IMG/VR virus record: IMGVR_UViG_3300025127_000213
Span: 1 to 27,047 of that record
DNA: 27,047 nt
Reading direction: 5' to 3' (one strand)
Source of the DNA: a virus
In this document: positions 1,504 through 21,069 of the stretch, in pieces
Numbering within the stretch: position 1 is the stretch's first letter
Layout: the number at the start of each line of letters is the position of its first letter
The notes under the pieces: model-generated
The model's input: only the letters and a program-made list of their open reading frames with translations
The model's database searches: none
What the model was told of the DNA's origin: nothing
Position numbers and translations under genes: made by a program

Positions 1504-4500
1504 ATGGTAACTTACGTTAACGACCTCCGCTTGTCCGAATTAGCCACCGGCGAAGGCTCCGGCACTTGGGGCACGACCACAAACACCAACCTTGAGTTGA
1601 TAGGTGAAGCTTTTTCCTTTGGTACGGAGGCTATTACCACTAATGCTGATACGCATACTACTACTATTGCCGATGGCTCTACTGATCCCGGCAGGAGTAT
1701 GTTTCTCAAATATACTGGCACTCTTGATAGCACTTGCACCATCACTATAGGGCCGAATACGGTCAGCAAGATGTGGTTTATTGAGAACGCAACCAGCGGA
1801 TCGCAGTCGATCATTATCAGCCAAGGTTCTGGCGCGAACGTCACCATCCTTAATGGTCAAACCAAAGCTATCTACAGTGATGGTGCTGGATCAGGTGCTG
1901 CGATGGTTGATGCGTTTACTGATCTGTCTGTCCCGTCGTTTTTTGTGTCAGGTGATTTAGACGTTGATGGCACCACCAATCTTGACGCTGTAGACGTAGA
2001 CGGCACTGTAAACTTTGCAGCAGACGTAACCTTTGCAGACGGTGCAGACATCATCACCGCATCCGCAGGCACATCCAACGTCCGTGTAGGTGTCAACGCA
2101 GGTAACTCCATTACCTCTGGCGGCAACTACAACGTGGTTGTTGGCGATGAAGCAGGTACGGCTTTGACTACGGGCGATAACAACGTAGCCATTGGGTTTG
2201 AGGCGTTAAGCACAGAAGATGCTAACGGGAATAACGTAGCTGTCGGCTATAGGGCGCTCAAGACACTAAACGCTGGAGCAGAATCATATAGTGTAGCGGT
2301 TGGACTTGACGCAGGAACGTCTCTTACTACTGGTGTACGAAACACTCTTGTGGGTGCTTTTGCTGGTGACAATTTAACGGACGCTGATTTTAACGTAGCT
2401 GTTGGTTTTGGCGCACTAGACGTTGACACGAAAGGTAGTAAATCTACAGCCGTTGGTTATGGGACTTTAGAGAGTCAAAATTTTACTACCTCCACAGATA
2501 GTAATAATACAGCAGTGGGCTTTGAAGCTGGGCATGTAATCACCACGGGAATACGAAACGTCCTCGTGGGCAGTCTTGCTGGCGATGCTCTTACTACCGC
2601 AACTAGGAACACAGGGATTGGAGACCAAGCCCTTTCCAGCGATACGTTAGGTAGTAGGTCAGTAGCAGTTGGTTTCGGTGCTTTATTTAGTCAAAACTTC
2701 ACTACAGCTACTAATGCTTATAACGTAGCGGTAGGTGCTGATGCAGGTGTATCAGTCACCACGGGAGTTCAAAACACTCTCATTGGCGGTCTAGCTGGCG
2801 ATGCCCTTACCGACGCCGACTTCAATGTGGCTATGGGATACAGCGCCCTTAGCTCTGACACTTTAGGAAGTCAATCTGTTGCCGTTGGGCACGGAGCTTT
2901 AGAAACACAAAACTTCACCACTGCTACAAATACGTTTAATACGGCGATTGGTTATCAGTCTGGTAACGACATTACCACAGGTCAGCAGAACACTCTTGTT
3001 GGAAGCCTATCGGGTGATGCGATCACTGTAGGTACTAGAAATGTAGCGATGGGGGTTGCTGCATTAGGTGCGGATACGAAAGGAAGCAGATCAGTAGCTA
3101 TTGGTAATGCGGCTTTAGCGTTGCAAAACTTCACCACAGCAACCGATGCATACAATGTGGCAGTAGGGGTTGATGCAGGCACAAACGTCACTACGGGAAC
3201 CAGCAACACCCTGATCGGCGGTCTTGCAGGTGATGCGCTGACTGATGCTGACTCTAACGTGGCCGTTGGTAGATCTGCCTTAAGCGCAGATACATTAGGT
3301 AGCAGGTCTGTAGCCATAGGCGAAAAAACTTTAGAGATTCAAAACTTTACTACAGCAACAAATGCCTACAACACAGCCGTTGGCTATATAGCTGGGAATT
3401 CAATCACCACGGGTCAGTACAATGTCTTAGTTGGTAGTCTAGCTGGTGACGCTCTATCAGACTCAGACTATAGCGTAGCTTTAGGATACTCAGCATTAAC
3501 CTCCGACACTTTAGGAACTAGAAGTGTTGCGTTAGGTAGTTTTGCACTTAGTCAACAAAACTTCACTACAGCAACAGATAGTTACAATACTGCTGTTGGT
3601 CATAGTGCTGGTGGCAACGTCACATCAGGTACAGGTAACACTCTCCTTGGAGGTCTTGCAGGTGATGCGTTGACTCAGGGTGCGCGTAATGTAGCAGTTG
3701 GCACAGCAGCGTTAACTAACGACACTTTGGGTCAATACGCTGTTGCGGTTGGCTACGGCACTCTATCTGTTCAAAATTTCACTACCGCTACAAATAATTA
3801 CAATATCGGAATTGGATATTTGGCGGGAGAAAACGTCACCACAGGAATCCGCAATACCCTTGTCGGCGCTCATGCTGGTGACGGTTTAACCGACTCTGAT
3901 TTTAATACGGCAGTAGGTTATGGGGCATTAGACTCTGATACTTTAGGCAGTCAATCAACGGCAGTTGGTTATCAAGCCTTAACCAGTCAAAATTTTACTA
4001 CCGCTACGGAATCCCACAATACGGCGGTAGGGTATATAGCAGGTAATGGACTTACCACTGGAAACCATACAACTCTCGTTGGGTCTTTAGCTGGGTATAG
4101 GTTGACCACGGGGAACCTTAACGTTGCCATTGGATCTGCTGCATTAAGTTCTGAGACGAAAGGTGATCGATCAGTAGCAGTAGGCATGAACGCTTTAACT
4201 ACTCAAAATAACACCACCAACGTTGATGCTTACAACATAGGAATTGGGTTAAACGCAGGTTTTGCAATCACCACCGGAATTCAGAACACCCTCATGGGAG
4301 GAGAGGTGTTTGATACTTTAACAACAGGAGATCGTTGTACAGCAATAGGTTATAACCTTGCCCCAAGCGCCGTAGGTGTAGACCAAGAAGTAGTCCTAGG
4401 AAGCAACATTGTTGGAGGAGGAGCTAACACAGTCAGGATTGGCACCGCTGCTGGTAACGCAACTCTAAATTTAGACGGCGCAGACACCTCATGGGCAGCA

Positions 4501-4857
4501 TCTTCAGATGAACGTCTAAAGAAAGATATTGCAGATTCTACAGTAGGTCTTTCATTTGTTAATGCTTTACGTCCTGTTACCTTCAAGTGGAACGCTAAAA
4601 ACGCTGTTGCAACTACTTTGCCTCAATATGATGCAGATTCTTCAGATCCTGTATTTGGAGACGGAAAGGCACATCACGGCTTTATAGCCCAAGAAGTAAA
4701 GGCTGTCATTGATGCAAACTCTGATGTAGTCAACGGTCATAACATTTGGCATGAAGACCCAGACGGTACGCAGCAAGTTGCACCCGCAGCACTCATCCCA
4801 ATGCTTGTAAAAGCAATTCAAGAACTTACAGCGCGTGTCGCCGCGCTCGAATCATAG
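1504..4857 (+). CDS. Giant tail fibre with S74 chaperone domain
   Basis: A 1117-aa fibre. The N-terminus (residues 17-25, GEGSGTWGT) resembles the virion-attachment end of many phage fibres. Residues 263-910 are nine exact-length 72-aa repeats built from N-x-A-V-G-x-x-A and T-T-G motifs, resembling the left-handed beta-roll of YadA-type heads and trimeric fibres. The C-terminus is a Peptidase_S74 intramolecular chaperone: SSDERLKKDI (candidate cleavage serine 1001), HHGFIAQEV, then a trimerising helix PMLVKAIQELTARVAALES. In this family the domain helps the trimer fold and then cuts itself off, here releasing about 117 residues. The likely role is receptor binding. The start at 1504 has AGGTGA upstream. 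The gene ends 9 bases before the next one. Confidence 0.93.
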   Translation: MVTYVNDLRLSELATGEGSGTWGTTTNTNLELIGEAFSFGTEAITTNADTHTTTIADGSTDPGRSMFLKYTGTLDSTCTITIGPNTVSKMWFIENATSGSQSIIISQGSGANVTILNGQTKAIYSDGAGSGAAMVDAFTDLSVPSFFVSGDLDVDGTTNLDAVDVDGTVNFAADVTFADGADIITASAGTSNVRVGVNAGNSITSGGNYNVVVGDEAGTALTTGDNNVAIGFEALSTEDANGNNVAVGYRALKTLNAGAESYSVAVGLDAGTSLTTGVRNTLVGAFAGDNLTDADFNVAVGFGALDVDTKGSKSTAVGYGTLESQNFTTSTDSNNTAVGFEAGHVITTGIRNVLVGSLAGDALTTATRNTGIGDQALSSDTLGSRSVAVGFGALFSQNFTTATNAYNVAVGADAGVSVTTGVQNTLIGGLAGDALTDADFNVAMGYSALSSDTLGSQSVAVGHGALETQNFTTATNTFNTAIGYQSGNDITTGQQNTLVGSLSGDAITVGTRNVAMGVAALGADTKGSRSVAIGNAALALQNFTTATDAYNVAVGVDAGTNVTTGTSNTLIGGLAGDALTDADSNVAVGRSALSADTLGSRSVAIGEKTLEIQNFTTATNAYNTAVGYIAGNSITTGQYNVLVGSLAGDALSDSDYSVALGYSALTSDTLGTRSVALGSFALSQQNFTTATDSYNTAVGHSAGGNVTSGTGNTLLGGLAGDALTQGARNVAVGTAALTNDTLGQYAVAVGYGTLSVQNFTTATNNYNIGIGYLAGENVTTGIRNTLVGAHAGDGLTDSDFNTAVGYGALDSDTLGSQSTAVGYQALTSQNFTTATESHNTAVGYIAGNGLTTGNHTTLVGSLAGYRLTTGNLNVAIGSAALSSETKGDRSVAVGMNALTTQNNTTNVDAYNIGIGLNAGFAITTGIQNTLMGGEVFDTLTTGDRCTAIGYNLAPSAVGVDQEVVLGSNIVGGGANTVRIGTAAGNATLNLDGADTSWAASSDERLKKDIADSTVGLSFVNALRPVTFKWNAKNAVATTLPQYDADSSDPVFGDGKAHHGFIAQEVKAVIDANSDVVNGHNIWHEDPDGTQQVAPAALIPMLVKAIQELTARVAALES
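2290..4233 (+). repeat. Nine tandem 216-bp (72-aa) coding repeats
   Basis: Nine units of exactly 72 codons. Each starts near N-T/V-A-V-G and ends near QNFTTATxxY, and a tenth partial unit begins at 4234. Length is kept while codons differ, so selection acts on protein geometry. Units alternate in part between two types: LIGGLAG...DAD with NVAVGxDAG, and LVGSLAG with NTAVGYxAG. Confidence 0.9.
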
Positions 4858-6224: not shown

Positions 6225-6347
6225 ATGGCTGAAATGACAACAGCGCAAAAGCGCAAGATGATAGCTGAACTGCGTAAAGCGTCTAAGTTACATGCGGGGC
6301 AAGCAGATAGGCTAGAAAAAACCTTACCCAACAAGAAGAAAAAATGA
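6225..6347 (+). CDS. Tiny basic protein, 40 aa
   Basis: ATG 6225 follows GAGGATCG. The 40-residue product begins MAEMTTAQKRKMIAELRKAS and ends in a lysine tail (NKKKK), and is helical and very basic. The stop overlaps the next start as ATGA (6344-6347), the usual coupling pattern here, which argues that the gene is real. It could be a nucleic-acid-binding or assembly peptide. Function is unknown. Confidence 0.55.
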   Translation: MAEMTTAQKRKMIAELRKASKLHAGQADRLEKTLPNKKKK

Positions 6348-6532
6348 GCGACAAAGGCGAACAAGCACTAAACGAAGTCAACGCGCATGAGCGGGAGTGC
6401 GCTTTGCGTTATCAACGCATTGAAGAGCGCCTTGCAGAAGGCTCTGCTAAGTTCAAGCACCTAGAAAATCTTATTTACGGACTGTACGCATTGATTGCAG
6501 CGGCAGCATTGCCGCAGTTTTTTATGGGGTAA
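6344..6532 (+). CDS. Small membrane protein, holin-accessory candidate
   Basis: A 62-aa protein: residues 1-42 form a charged amphipathic helix (RYQRIEERLAEGSAKFKHLE), followed by one hydrophobic segment at about 43-60 (LIYGLYALIAAAALPQFF). This helix-then-anchor layout resembles XhlA-type accessory lysis proteins, which partner a holin. It opens the lysis cassette and overlaps its upstream neighbour by ATGA. The assignment rests on topology and position, not a recognised motif. Confidence 0.55.
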   Translation: MSDKGEQALNEVNAHERECALRYQRIEERLAEGSAKFKHLENLIYGLYALIAAAALPQFFMG

Positions 6533-6535
6533 GCC

Positions 6536-7003
6536 ATGATTATTGAGTCTGTTGCAGCCGCTGGCATGTTGCTCCAGCAGATCAATTCGGTCATTCAGAA
6601 TGTGAACGAAGGCAAGGCTAATGTCGATCAGGCAATGGCTTTAGTATCCGATTTTGGCGAAGCACTTAACGCTTTTGAGATTGACCGCAAGTCTTCTGCA
6701 TTCAAGCCGCTATCTAAGAACGACATCTTGAAGCTGCAAATGCTTCGCAGGTCGCAGGAGCGATACCAAAAAGATTTGAGGGATTTGCTTCTTGTCGCAG
6801 ACCCTAAGCTGTTAAAAGATTACGATGACGCGATCATGCAGCAAGAAAGGGACAGAAAGGCTCATCAGGCTATGCTAAACAAGAAGCGCAAAGAACGTGA
6901 AAAACTCATGCACGACATTTCAGTTGGATTAGTGGCTTTAATTCTTGGCGGTGGTGTAGCCATCGGTATGATTTACTTAATTGTCAAAGCGTTTGGGCCG
7001 TAA
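6536..7003 (+). CDS. Helical protein with C-terminal membrane anchor
   Basis: A 155-aa protein. The first 120 residues are helical, with a long charged stretch (MQQERDRKAHQAMLNKKRKE). Residues about 127-150 form a single membrane segment (VGLVALILGGGVAIGMIYLI). It sits between two other small membrane proteins in the lysis cassette, with 2-3 base gaps on both sides. It could be a holin partner or an inner-membrane virion or entry factor. The family is not recognised. Confidence 0.6.
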   Translation: MIIESVAAAGMLLQQINSVIQNVNEGKANVDQAMALVSDFGEALNAFEIDRKSSAFKPLSKNDILKLQMLRRSQERYQKDLRDLLLVADPKLLKDYDDAIMQQERDRKAHQAMLNKKRKEREKLMHDISVGLVALILGGGVAIGMIYLIVKAFGP

Positions 7004-7005
7004 TT

Positions 7006-7335
7006 ATGAATGCAAAACGATTAGAAGAAGATAGCGAATACGCCGAATACGACGCGGATGGTGACGGCGTAGTTTCTGATGAAGAAATCGAAACTAGCAA
7101 AGAGTTACTGGAGCTACGGCTGCATCATGAACGAGCCGACGCGCAACGTGCTATGAGTTGGTTTGCGCTGTGGGGCATGTTGCTGTACCCCAGCTTGGTT
7201 GTCGCATCAGAGCTTTTCGGGCTGACTCAAGCTGCATCTATCTTAGGTGATATGGCGGCAGTCTACTTCGTATCCGTTGCGGGTATATTGGCTGCGTTTT
7301 TTGGCGCACAAGCATGGTCAAACAGGAAGCCGTAA
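7006..7335 (+). CDS. Putative holin with N-terminal EF-hand loop
   Basis: A 109-aa protein with two visible parts. Residues 16-27 (DADGDGVVSDEE) match the 12-position EF-hand loop: Asp at 1, 3 and 5, Gly at 6, Val at 8 and Glu at 12. Flanking helices are acidic. Then come two hydrophobic segments at about 50-68 (WFALWGMLLYPSLVVASEL) and 80-102 (LGDMAAVYFVSVAGILAAFFG). Two membrane helices, small size and position right before the spanins and endolysin fit a holin. The EF loop suggests Ca2+ binding on the soluble side. Both roles are inferred. The stop overlaps the preferred next start as TAATG. Confidence 0.65.
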   Translation: MNAKRLEEDSEYAEYDADGDGVVSDEEIETSKELLELRLHHERADAQRAMSWFALWGMLLYPSLVVASELFGLTQAASILGDMAAVYFVSVAGILAAFFGAQAWSNRKP

Positions 7336-7733
7336 TGTGGCAGATTACAGGGGTTCTAGGCATTGCTTTATTGGCTACTGTCGGAGCGTTCAAGATGTAC
7401 GCAGATAAAACAGAGGCTGAAAAGCAAGCTATGGCTATGGATTTACGTCAAGCGGCAGACAACGAGCTAGTTTTGGAAAGCAGCATATCTAGCCTGAATG
7501 AACAGCTTACGGAGGCTGAAGAGCGCCAACAGCGCATACTCAATCGAGTCAACGAGCTTCAGGCTGCTAACGCTCAGGCCCAGCAAGAGGTGGAGTCGAT
7601 CAGAAAAAAGTTCGCAAAGCACGATATAAATGTGCTTTCGCTACGCAAGCCGGGATTGATTGAGAACATTATCAACCGTGGCACCAAGGGGGTATTAAGT
7701 GATCTGGAAGCTATTACCGATCCTGCTTCTTAG
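7335..7733 (+). CDS. Inner-membrane spanin (Rz-like)
   Basis: I start this at ATG 7335, which has AGGAAG seven bases upstream and overlaps the previous stop (TAATG), rather than the in-frame ATG 7314. The 132-aa product has an N-terminal membrane anchor (about residues 4-20, ITGVLGIALLATVGAFKMY) and a long heptad coiled coil (about 25-100, with ESSISSLNEQLTEAEERQQ). This is the layout of an i-spanin, which spans the periplasm and fuses inner and outer membranes at lysis together with a lipoprotein partner. The overlapping next gene supplies that partner. Confidence 0.8.
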   Translation: MWQITGVLGIALLATVGAFKMYADKTEAEKQAMAMDLRQAADNELVLESSISSLNEQLTEAEERQQRILNRVNELQAANAQAQQEVESIRKKFAKHDINVLSLRKPGLIENIINRGTKGVLSDLEAITDPAS

Positions 7734-8100
7734 TGGTTGCGGCCTAATAGGTCGAGAGCCGTACATCCCTGAGACCAAGCCTGTCGAAGTTGTCACGGTC
7801 ATCAAGCCAGCAGCCGTTTATCATCCTGCATTACCAAACGCTATATCCACGCTGCCTGTCGAATGGAAGGTTCTAACGCCTCAAACGATGCAAGAATATC
7901 TTGATGATCTTGAAGAGGGCAACGCCCCGACAAACGCTTACTATGGCTTATCGACCAAAGGCTATGAAAACCTTTCGGCAAACATGGCCGAAGTTAAAAG
8001 ATATATTCGCCAAGTGCTCACTATTGTACAATACTATAAAAATTTGGACGAGGAACTCGAAGATGAGAGTGACCAGCGAGGAAGGGATATCCCTGATTAA
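7699..8100 (+). CDS. Outer-membrane spanin lipoprotein (Rz1-like)
   Basis: Starts at GTG 7699, inside the 3' end of the i-spanin gene in another frame (35-base overlap), with AAGGGGG upstream. The N-terminus reads MIWKLLPILLLSGC, a type II signal peptide with lipobox LSGC, so Cys14 is expected to be lipidated. The mature 120-residue part is Pro-rich near its start (PYIPETKPVEV) and ends acidic. Overlapping i-/o-spanin genes just before an endolysin are diagnostic of Gram-negative phage lysis cassettes. The protein is longer than lambda Rz1. Its 3' end overlaps the endolysin start by 38 bases. Confidence 0.8.
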   Translation: MIWKLLPILLLSGCGLIGREPYIPETKPVEVVTVIKPAAVYHPALPNAISTLPVEWKVLTPQTMQEYLDDLEEGNAPTNAYYGLSTKGYENLSANMAEVKRYIRQVLTIVQYYKNLDEELEDESDQRGRDIPD

Positions 8101-8509
8101 AAAGTTTGAGGGCTGTGAGCTGAAGGCATATCAATGCTCGGCTGACGTATGGACGATTGGCTATGGGCATACGGCTGGAGTCGCGGAGGGAGACAGTTGT
8201 ACGGCTGAAGATGCGGAAGCAATGCTCACAGAGGATTTGTCAGAATTTGAGGGCTACATTAACGACTTGGTGACGGTTGATTTGTCACAAAATCAGTTCG
8301 ACGCATTGGTCGCATGGGTTTACAACCTCGGCCCCGGTGCTTTGAAAGAATCGACTTTGCTTCGCAAGCTGAATGAAGGCGACTACAAAGACGCGCCATA
8401 TCAGATCAAACGGTGGAATCGCGCAGGCGGTAAGGTGCTAGACGGTTTAGTCAGAAGACGTGAAGCGGAGGCGCTGTTGTTCCAAGGAGAAGCTTGGGAA
8501 AATGTCTGA
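8063..8509 (+). CDS. Endolysin, GH24 lysozyme
   Basis: The 148-aa protein starts at ATG 8063 (GAGGA at 8050-8054). The same frame is open further upstream, but that part is shadowed by the o-spanin. It shows the phage muramidase signature IKKFEGCELKAYQCSADVW then TIGYGHT: catalytic Glu17, threonine in the TIGYGHT motif, and Cys at the place where T4 lysozyme has Asp20. Later motifs (FDALVAWVYNLGPGALKEST, RRREAEALLF) are typical. It cleaves the MurNAc-GlcNAc bond. No signal peptide or SAR anchor is seen, so it should depend on a holin for export. Confidence 0.93.
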   Translation: MRVTSEEGISLIKKFEGCELKAYQCSADVWTIGYGHTAGVAEGDSCTAEDAEAMLTEDLSEFEGYINDLVTVDLSQNQFDALVAWVYNLGPGALKESTLLRKLNEGDYKDAPYQIKRWNRAGGKVLDGLVRRREAEALLFQGEAWENV

Positions 8510-19282: not shown

Positions 19283-20707
19283 ATGGCTGAATCCAATGAC
19301 TTACAGGCTGCGCTAGACGAGTACGGAAGCTCGGCTTCGCCATACTCGGCTCTCGATAAGTATTTGATGCAGCAGCCAGTGTATGACAGGGGGCCAAGAG
19401 AAGCGCCAGTAGCGCCTACCATGCGAACCCTTGAAGCCAACATGCCTGACGTTGATGATCAGCTCGCCAGTCAGTATGAAAAAATTATGGCAGAGCAAAC
19501 AGCGGCAAACGAAGCTGCTGAGGCTTCACGTCAAGCCGAGATCGACGGCCTGCGAGATTTATTGCGCCAAGAGCTTGCGACCTCCGAAGAGGCGGCGCTT
19601 GGTCAGCGGTCAGAGCTGACAAAAACACTAGAAGATCAGATAGAAAGTATGCGTCGAGGCGTTGACGCAGAGAATTTGGATCTACGCCAAGCTGGTTTGG
19701 ATGAGAGAGCTGCGCTGGCGCAACAGATAGAAGAGGGCGACAGATTAGTGCGTCAAGCACAAGAAACTGCCGCTGGATCTTTGCAGGATCGCATTGCCAC
19801 TTTGTCTGGCGACTTGTCAGACATAACAGGCACGATTGACGCAAATTACGCTCAGCTCGATGAGGTTCAAAAGAACGCCGCTGATGCAACTCAAAGCGAA
19901 ATAGATTCTCTTAATCAACAACTTGAGAGCCTGTACACCGATGTGGAGTCTGGAAACGCAGCCCAGTCTGAAGCTATAAAAAGCGATACAGCCGATCTCG
20001 TTGCTGGATTAGAGGAGAAGATTGGCGGTCTGGCAGACAACCTCGGCGCGTTGCCACTGGAGTCAATTCAATCACAGCTTGCGGCGGTAAACGATCAAAC
20101 AGCTCAGTTTCAACAGGCGGTGGATTCGGCTGCTACCGAAAGAGCTGACTTAGCTTCTCGCATTGACGCTTTGCAATCTTCTGGGCTGACCCAAGACGAC
20201 TTGAGCGGCTTGTCGCAAACTATCGCGGGGCAGCGTCAGACAGAGATATCATCCGCACTGAATCCTGTACAGCAGCAGATTGAAGAGCTGCGAGGACAAA
20301 TACCCACAGAGATTGATACTGAGGCGCTACGCAAACAAATTACTGATGATGTCGTAGCGCAAATGGCGAGCCAGCAACCGCCTGCAACCACTACTCCGCC
20401 TGCAACCACTTCTTCGCCAATCACGGTTGGTTCTGCTGAAGGGCAACAAGGTATCGTCGTAGAGCCAGAGGCGGGTGCCTATGGCTTTGGCCCATCAGCA
20501 TCCGAAGCTGGAGGGTTCAATCCTTACGGCGGGGCTGGTTCTGACGCAAGGAATTACATGCAATATGACCGAGGAGACTACGCCAGAGGCACAGCTCCTC
20601 AACAAAATACTATGGCCCAAAGTCAAATGACTGGGCGAACTGGGCCTTTCGTTCCTGACATGAGGGATATCATGCAGGGCATCAACGTGCGAGGAGCAGG
20701 ACTGTAA
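19283..20707 (+). CDS. Long coiled-coil virion protein candidate
   Basis: A 474-aa acidic protein. Residues about 50-345 are continuous coiled coil (Ala/Glu/Gln/Asp/Leu), with few helix breakers (GLADNLGALPLE, QSSGLTQDDLSGL). A Pro/Thr hinge follows (PATTTPPATTSS), then a Gly/Tyr-rich tail (FGPSASEAGGFNPYGGAGSD) ending in a conserved-looking RTGPFVPDMRDIMQGINVRG. It could be a fibre, an internal virion or ejection protein, or an assembly chaperone. The gene is too short, and the order wrong, for a siphovirus tape measure. Confidence 0.65.
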   Translation: MAESNDLQAALDEYGSSASPYSALDKYLMQQPVYDRGPREAPVAPTMRTLEANMPDVDDQLASQYEKIMAEQTAANEAAEASRQAEIDGLRDLLRQELATSEEAALGQRSELTKTLEDQIESMRRGVDAENLDLRQAGLDERAALAQQIEEGDRLVRQAQETAAGSLQDRIATLSGDLSDITGTIDANYAQLDEVQKNAADATQSEIDSLNQQLESLYTDVESGNAAQSEAIKSDTADLVAGLEEKIGGLADNLGALPLESIQSQLAAVNDQTAQFQQAVDSAATERADLASRIDALQSSGLTQDDLSGLSQTIAGQRQTEISSALNPVQQQIEELRGQIPTEIDTEALRKQITDDVVAQMASQQPPATTTPPATTSSPITVGSAEGQQGIVVEPEAGAYGFGPSASEAGGFNPYGGAGSDARNYMQYDRGDYARGTAPQQNTMAQSQMTGRTGPFVPDMRDIMQGINVRGAGL

Positions 20708-21069
20708 TGGCTAGTGATGTACCAAAGAACGTAGCGAACCCTTCTCTTTACAAGAAGGCGAAGGCAAAAGCCAAGGCCAAGTTTGACGTTTACCCAAGCG
20801 CATACGCCAACGGCTGGATGGTGCAGGAGTACAAGCGGATGGGCGGAACATACAAAGGCGCTACAGGGGGCGAAGTAACACTCGACCCTGTGAAAAGTGA
20901 TTTGGACAAAGACGGCAAGCTGAGCGGCTACGAGCGTAAGCGCGGCACCGCAATCGCCAAGAGCATGGCAAAAAAAATGAATATGGGCGGAACTGTCATG
21001 GTTCAAAGCCGTGGCTGTGGCGCTATCATGCCAAGCAAGCAAAAGAAAACGAGAGTGCCCCGTGGGTAA
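20707..21069 (+). CDS. Basic protein with EF-hand-like loop, 120 aa
   Basis: Overlaps the previous stop (TAATG). Residues 12-50 (SLYKKAKAKAKAKFDVYPSA, GWMVQEYKRMGGTYKG) match a short family I recall from marine phages and giant viruses (a DUF, possibly DUF5872). Residues 65-76, DLDKDGKLSGYE, fit the 12-residue EF-hand loop (Asp 1, 3 and 5, Gly 6, Leu 8, Glu 12), followed by a basic helix. The rest of the remembered family (K-W-F...W-V-D) appears at the start of the next gene, so one domain family may be split over two genes. Function is unknown; it is probably a virion or DNA-associated protein. Confidence 0.65.
   Translation: MASDVPKNVANPSLYKKAKAKAKAKFDVYPSAYANGWMVQEYKRMGGTYKGATGGEVTLDPVKSDLDKDGKLSGYERKRGTAIAKSMAKKMNMGGTVMVQSRGCGAIMPSKQKKTRVPRG

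Follow-up and report, generated by a model that had tools for sequence, protein, structure and literature searches.

The locus analyzed here raises the question of whether a small two-helix membrane protein, encoded among phage lysis genes, acts as a holin, and of what the calcium loop ahead of its helices contributes. The window, by which we mean the whole stretch of DNA that was analyzed, is a virus record of 27,047 bases in which open reading frames were called mechanically. It contains a compact operon composed of P2, P3, the EF-loop gene, Rz, Rz1, and a GH24 endolysin gene, with the large terminase gene next (Table 1). The stop codon of the EF-loop gene overlaps the start codon of Rz (TAATG). 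Two repeat-rich proteins (TLTGQAITSGVG and VAVGxxAL repeats) are encoded upstream of the lysis region (775-1491 and 1504-4857), and the larger of them, the 1504-4857 product, appeared to be tail-fibre-like by eye.

Table 1. Positions of the EF-loop gene, its predicted elements, and the surrounding operon genes in the window
Feature	Positions	Strand	Evidence
Two-TM protein of 109 aa with EF loop, candidate holin	7006..7335	+	ORF translation, conservation, AlphaFold2, hydropathy
EF-hand loop DADGDGVVSDEE, residues 16-27	7051..7086	+	motif and conservation
TM helix 1, approximately residues 53-71	7162..7218	+	hydropathy; AlphaFold2 helix 25-70
TM helix 2, approximately residues 83-106	7252..7323	+	hydropathy; AlphaFold2 helix 84-106
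P2, 62 aa, helical toward the N-terminus, with a single C-terminal TM	6344..6532	+	by eye
P3, 155 aa, one C-terminal TM	6536..7003	+	TM by eye; relatedness to phrog_32327 proteins
Rz-like inner-membrane spanin	7335..7733	+	phrog_739, E 1.4e-9
Rz1-like outer-membrane lipoprotein spanin	7699..8100	+	phrog_812, E 1.9e-14
GH24 endolysin without export signal	8063..8509	+	PF00959, E 2.6e-51; N-terminal hydropathy

The EF-loop protein begins with 15 residues ahead of the loop; a charged, helical region follows the loop, and then come two hydrophobic segments. The loop comprises 12 residues with oxygen ligands at positions 1, 3, 5, and 9, glycine at position 6, and glutamate at position 12; it is thus canonical, and an earlier note on this DNA, which described a textbook calcium loop ahead of two membrane helices, was correct. 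When the 109 residues were shuffled 200,000 times, 205 of the products held any match to the EF-hand signature and 17 a strict one, and the six frames of the window contain only two matches, one in the EF-loop gene and one at position 20899. The latter marks the start of an EF-hand-type loop, DLDKDGKLSGYE, in a 120-aa protein (20707-21069) that has a DUF5872-like N-terminus (E 3.6e-7). The Pfam EF-hand models score the EF-loop protein of the window below their cut-offs (15.5 vs 25.9 bits and 14.5 vs 25.4 bits; E 0.012 and 0.026), and its relatives likewise stay under these cut-offs.

Better evidence against a chance motif than the shuffles is the conservation of the loop. The first searches (viral contigs with the full-length protein, and annotated phages) revealed the loop in 88 of 88 loci. 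As a precaution against bias, the searches were repeated with the post-loop part alone as the query, in three diverged versions, and a full-alignment scan of genomes was added; the loop was kept in 238 of the 240 loci from the tail-only scans (L090-L329). In total, the canonical loop was present in 333 of 337 related loci. These loci are not independent, since each viral-contig scan contributed its 80 best matches out of a larger number. Related viral contigs numbered from at least 578 to at least 595 per scan in three scans. The four exceptions are two contig ends (L256 and L337), an unread loop base (L334), and a glutamine at position 12 (L106).

For residue-level comparison we selected 54 representatives under 82% identity and aligned 52 of them (alignment A5), omitting two with long N-terminal extensions (L132 and L146) and using the window protein in place of L001. 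Only loop positions 1, 6, and 12 (D1, G6, E12) and Gln47 are invariant among the 52 members, and variation at the other ligand positions is restricted to N/D at position 3, D/N/S at position 5, and S/D/T/E at position 9. Entropy averages 0.58 bits over loop positions 1, 3, 5, 6, 9, and 12 vs 2.05 bits over the remaining six. G6 and E12 were found in 314 of 314 counted members; these were chosen by a loop pattern permitting D or E at position 12 and several residues at position 6, so that D1 is present by construction, whereas G6 and E12 are not. The invariant residues are specified by varying synonymous codons (GAT/GAC for aspartate, four glycine codons, GAA/GAG for glutamate). Loop conservation together with synonymous variation is the pattern expected of purifying selection on a putative Ca2+ site, and an invariant glutamate at position 12 fits Ca2+ better than Mg2+. 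A chance motif is thus ruled out by conservation. The architecture described in the earlier note stands, but it recurs in hundreds of phage contigs and is a family trait rather than an oddity of one phage.

The second part of the described layout, the two membrane helices, was recovered both by hydropathy, which was used in place of a TM predictor, and by structure prediction. Hydrophobic 19-residue peaks begin at residues 53 and 83, and AlphaFold2 places helices at residues 25-70, 74-82, and 84-106, that is, two long helices and one short (mean pLDDT 77.8, pTM 0.44, with the loop region in the 60s). The exiting helix of the loop and TM1 form a single, confidently predicted helix (25-70). The entering helix is short (residues 11-15, at low pLDDT), and members of the CRP-1 type have only about 5 residues ahead of the loop. 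In the model, therefore, a single N-terminal EF loop caps one long helix running into TM1, and through this continuity a Ca2+-dependent change in the loop might be passed straight to TM1. Foldseek returned nothing from PDB at E <= 0.001 and one unnamed 84-residue protein from BFVD (E 1.6e-4).

Averaged over the 52 members, the C-terminal tail has 2.4 K/R vs 0.2 D/E, and the TM1-TM2 connector has 0.6 K/R vs 1.9 D/E. By the positive-inside rule, this charge bias suggests that both ends, and hence the loop, are located in the cytoplasm; the N-in/C-in topology is a tendency, since K or R occurs within the connector in 31 of 52 members. So placed, the loop would be exposed to little Ca2+ before leakage of the membrane begins, and thus the argument that sea water is rich in Ca2+ does not apply directly. 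An adaptation to sea water only is also weakened by the presence of the loop in the freshwater Limnohabitans phage DC31.

The neighborhoods of the related genes were described using HMMs built from recurring genes of the EF loci themselves, and representatives were scanned against Pfam and PHROGs to name the neighbors (PF11351, the holin neighbor, at E 2.7e-15). Four large groups were distinguished: (i) in the closest group (80 loci), P3 is directly upstream in 56 and PF11351 directly downstream in 56, Rz is downstream in 14, and GH24 is present in 69; (ii) in the CRP-345-like group (82 loci), phrog_2524 is downstream in 61, P3 directly upstream in 54, and an endolysin present in 76; (iii) in the CRP-1-like group (83 loci), an M15-type endolysin is present in 80 and a unimolecular-spanin-like protein in 81; and (iv) in the HTVC008M-like group (82 loci), gp51 is directly upstream in 41, the tape measure gene downstream in 10, and an endolysin present in 4. 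The other 10 loci, from nine genome contigs and CRP-207, include an endolysin in 2. Overall, one of four endolysin types was observed in 231 of 337 loci, some of the remaining loci being short contigs. The neighbor HMMs found neither PF11351 nor phrog_2524 in the 83 CRP-1-like loci, and neither occurs in the window. The T4-like pelagimyophages (HTVC008M, Melnitz-2, and many contigs) carry the gene between gp51 and the tape measure gene, within a baseplate/tape-measure operon that is distant from the endolysin genes. The holin position assigned by the earlier note therefore describes the window and most non-T4-like loci but not the T4-like pelagimyophages. The holin identity is likewise qualified, because in many relatives the predicted holin PF11351 or the phrog_2524 protein adjoins the EF-loop gene, and there the EF-loop protein may be a partner or an antiholin.

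Several further features of these neighborhoods were observed. The genes following the EF-loop gene vary across the closest group (L001-L080; PF11351 in 56, Rz in 14, and Rz1 in 13 of 80), and none of the gene patterns listed for this group has PF11351 and Rz/Rz1 together. The P3 family (phrog_32327), with one C-terminal TM, is widespread, being present in 17 phage records, many of them without an EF-loop protein, and in loci including L342, L343, L344, L345, L347, L352, and L353; in CRP-345, P3 is located about 22 kb away from the lysis genes. Four relatives of the window by terminase, 023Pt_psg01, HTVC027P, DSL-LC04, and HTVC023P, gave no match to the EF family model and have no lysis-annotated gene in the stretch upstream of the terminase.

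The endolysins encoded with the EF-loop protein bear on the need for a holin. A hydrophobic N-terminal stretch is absent from 221 of 222 endolysin ORFs of the EF loci (hydropathy below 1.8; 0.45 for the window endolysin), and in the same test 26 of 29 Rz proteins, used as a control, scored above 1.8. Soluble endolysins require a large hole; thus, without export signals, these endolysins should need a true holin. The CRP-1 genome, which was scanned piece by piece, has three ORFs of up to 260 aa with at least two hydrophobic segments, namely, the EF-loop protein, a lipobox spanin, and an 84-aa mechanically called ORF (3486-3740). The argument is weaker in CRP-345, CRP-9, CRP-207, and HTVC008M, because further two-TM ORFs are present there. 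The T4 holin t was scored as one TM in the same hydropathy scan, and one-TM holins, including P2 and P3 in the window, are other candidates. The EF-loop protein is the best holin candidate both for the window and for CRP-1.

The pelagimyophages differ in gene arrangement. In the 147-kb record of HTVC008M, the EF-loop gene is at 16 kb and the annotated endolysins are at 141-144 kb, which on a circular genome would put them about 22 kb from each other; no holin is annotated. Neither PF11351 nor PF11031 (T4-type holin) matched HTVC008M or Melnitz-2, the respective controls CRP-810 and T4 being positive; in Mosig, PF11351 gave a borderline score of 24.9 bits against a cut-off of 24.8. In the passages of the Melnitz description considered here, the authors propose a curli pore as a pinholin analogue and name no holin for this phage (PMC9004378).

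Among known systems, the closest likeness is to class II holins of the S21 type, which have two TM helices in an N-in, C-in arrangement. The EF-loop protein shares with them its size (109 aa) and two hydrophobic segments, and its charge bias tends toward the same topology. Its gene stands in a lysis operon beside a gene for a soluble endolysin; besides the window, 231 of 337 loci hold an endolysin, the T4-like loci being exceptions. It differs by the EF loop and by having no sequence match over the cut-off. In addition, the partner endolysin of the S21 pinholin is a SAR, that is, exported, protein, whereas the endolysins beside the EF-loop protein, with one exception in 222, show no export signal. 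No named holin family of Pfam or PHROGs matched the window protein or its relatives over the cut-offs, the best score being for Phage_holin_3_6 with two relatives (E 0.019 and 0.051, below the cut-off). The nearest PHROG is phrog_27150, a profile of 139 positions with unnamed function (E 9e-12 for CRP-1, 5e-7 for L338, and 0.031 for the window protein). GTA_holin_3TM (PF11351) and phrog_2524 are membrane proteins of the same operons, encoded by separate adjoining genes; PF11351 has three TMs by its family name, and no EF loop was noted in either. Compared with EF-hand proteins, the EF-loop protein has every ligand position of the 12-residue loop but differs in its single loop, its short or absent entering helix, and its Pfam scores under the cut-offs.

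A second family was found to occupy the same genomic slots. In the pelagimyophage Mosig, the slot between gp51 and the likely tape measure gene is taken by Mosig_00135, which has two TMs but no calcium loop, and in CRP-901 gp43 is directly upstream of phrog_2524. Both proteins match phrog_10198 (function unnamed) and resemble the EF family in size and in having two TM helices but lack the calcium loop; we claim no kinship between the families. Two further scans yielded 160 loop-less loci (the best 80 each of the CRP-901 and Mosig types). Of the 80 CRP-901-type loci, 72 have P3 upstream and 51 have phrog_2524 downstream; of the 80 Mosig-type loci, 36 have gp51 upstream. Thus, both slots of the EF family, the lysis-type and the gp51/tape-measure one, are used. 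None of 112 distinct loop-less sequences has the calcium loop. The EF model had no match in the 160 loop-less loci or in the whole records of CRP-901, CRP-13, Mosig, and Vibrio phage D2; the loop-less model had none in the 337 EF loci or in the whole records of 8 EF phages, and it matched 4 loop-less phages as a control. Since the slots are shared and the two families were never found together in these loci and records, the simplest reading is that both would do the same job, one of them bearing a calcium loop.

Similarity between these families was also examined at the profile level. In hhalign, the EF TM hairpin gave P 1.2e-4 against the C-terminal half of phrog_2524 and 0.011 against the loop-less family; in HMO-2011, a weak match of the EF model (E 0.003), located inside the phrog_2524 gene, points the same way. 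Homology of the hairpin to either family was set aside, given P 0.016 with phrog_2524 as the query and 3.8e-4 for a reversed control. The annotation of the loop-less two-TM gene of HMO-2011 (L342, 46020-46202 of the record) begins at an internal GTG (gp57, 37 aa), its open frame extends further upstream than the annotation, and the model match crosses one TGA at its end. The loop-less record of Vibrio phage D2 has no annotated lysis gene near the match.

Computation establishes the gene, its loop and the near-absolute conservation of that loop, the lysis-operon setting, and the loop-less replacement family. From this we give about even chances to the EF-loop protein being a membrane component of the lysis machinery, either a holin or a regulatory partner, with commitment to lysis driven by the loop. 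Several points count against it: no named holin family matches over its cut-off, PF11351 or phrog_2524 is the next gene in many loci, T4-like phages have the gene in a tail operon, the window offers P2 and P3 as alternative candidates, K or R occurs in the connector of 31 of 52 members, and a lone EF loop might have only weak affinity for Ca2+ or a purely structural role. The main rival for the protein is an antiholin or timing partner, with the hole made by PF11351, phrog_2524, P3, or P2 and the EF-loop protein restraining or tuning it. The frequent placement of PF11351 (56/80) or phrog_2524 (61/82) directly after the gene and of P3 directly before it (56/80 and 54/82) is what such a partner would lead one to expect, but PF11351 and phrog_2524 are both absent from the CRP-1-like loci and from the window, and P3 is both distant from the lysis genes in CRP-345 and found in phages without the EF-loop protein; we consider this role unlikely. 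Still less probable, in our estimate, is a membrane protein of tail or baseplate assembly rather than of lysis. Such a role is suggested by the T4-like operon position, where gp51 immediately precedes the gene in 41 of 82 loci, and T4 hub assembly is itself linked to the membrane; in most other loci, however, the gene adjoins endolysin and spanin genes, and the loop-less family shares both settings, in keeping with a single interchangeable function.

For the loop, the main rival is a static clip that is always bound to Ca2+ (or Mg2+) and stiffens the helix preceding TM1, with no gating. Many bacterial single EF-type loops are structural, the entering helix of the model is short, and CRP-1-type members have almost nothing before the loop, all of which makes a static clip a serious contender at somewhat under even chances. 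Two indirect observations argue against it, namely, the charge rule that puts the loop in the low-Ca2+ cytoplasm and the loop-less family that fills the slot without any loop.

Returning to the lysis component with a loop-driven switch, we consider a holin or holin partner that binds Ca2+ likely, and gating by Ca2+ plausible; Ca2+ binding, membrane topology, and holin activity are what we infer for the protein. The mechanism is the least certain part of this proposal. The loop would be empty during infection, while cytosolic Ca2+ is sub-micromolar; a first membrane leak or depolarization would let Ca2+ enter and the loop fold; the filled loops of adjacent subunits would pair and pull the helix into a hole-forming arrangement; and a small leak would thereby be turned into an all-or-none commitment to lysis. 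The stronger form, in which the protein is itself a calcium-gated holin that uses Ca2+ inflow through the first leak as a positive-feedback signal in hundreds of marine phage contigs, seems to us rather doubtful. Its users would include pelagimyophages without a recognized holin, and the loop-less family would fill the same role with no such signal.

Holins set the time of lysis. No calcium-gated holin or EF-hand holin is described in the titles, abstracts, and selected passages of the open-licence literature that we covered. The EF-loop family is common in marine phage contigs, and its loop is nearly always perfect, which suggests that Ca2+ may help to time the bursting of their hosts. The EF-loop protein also provides a holin candidate for pelagimyophages such as HTVC008M and Melnitz. 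Isolates with and without the loop infect the same host strains (HTVC008M with and Mosig without it on HTCC1062; CRP-1 and CRP-9 with and CRP-13 without it on FZCC0023), and this makes the question of gating directly testable.
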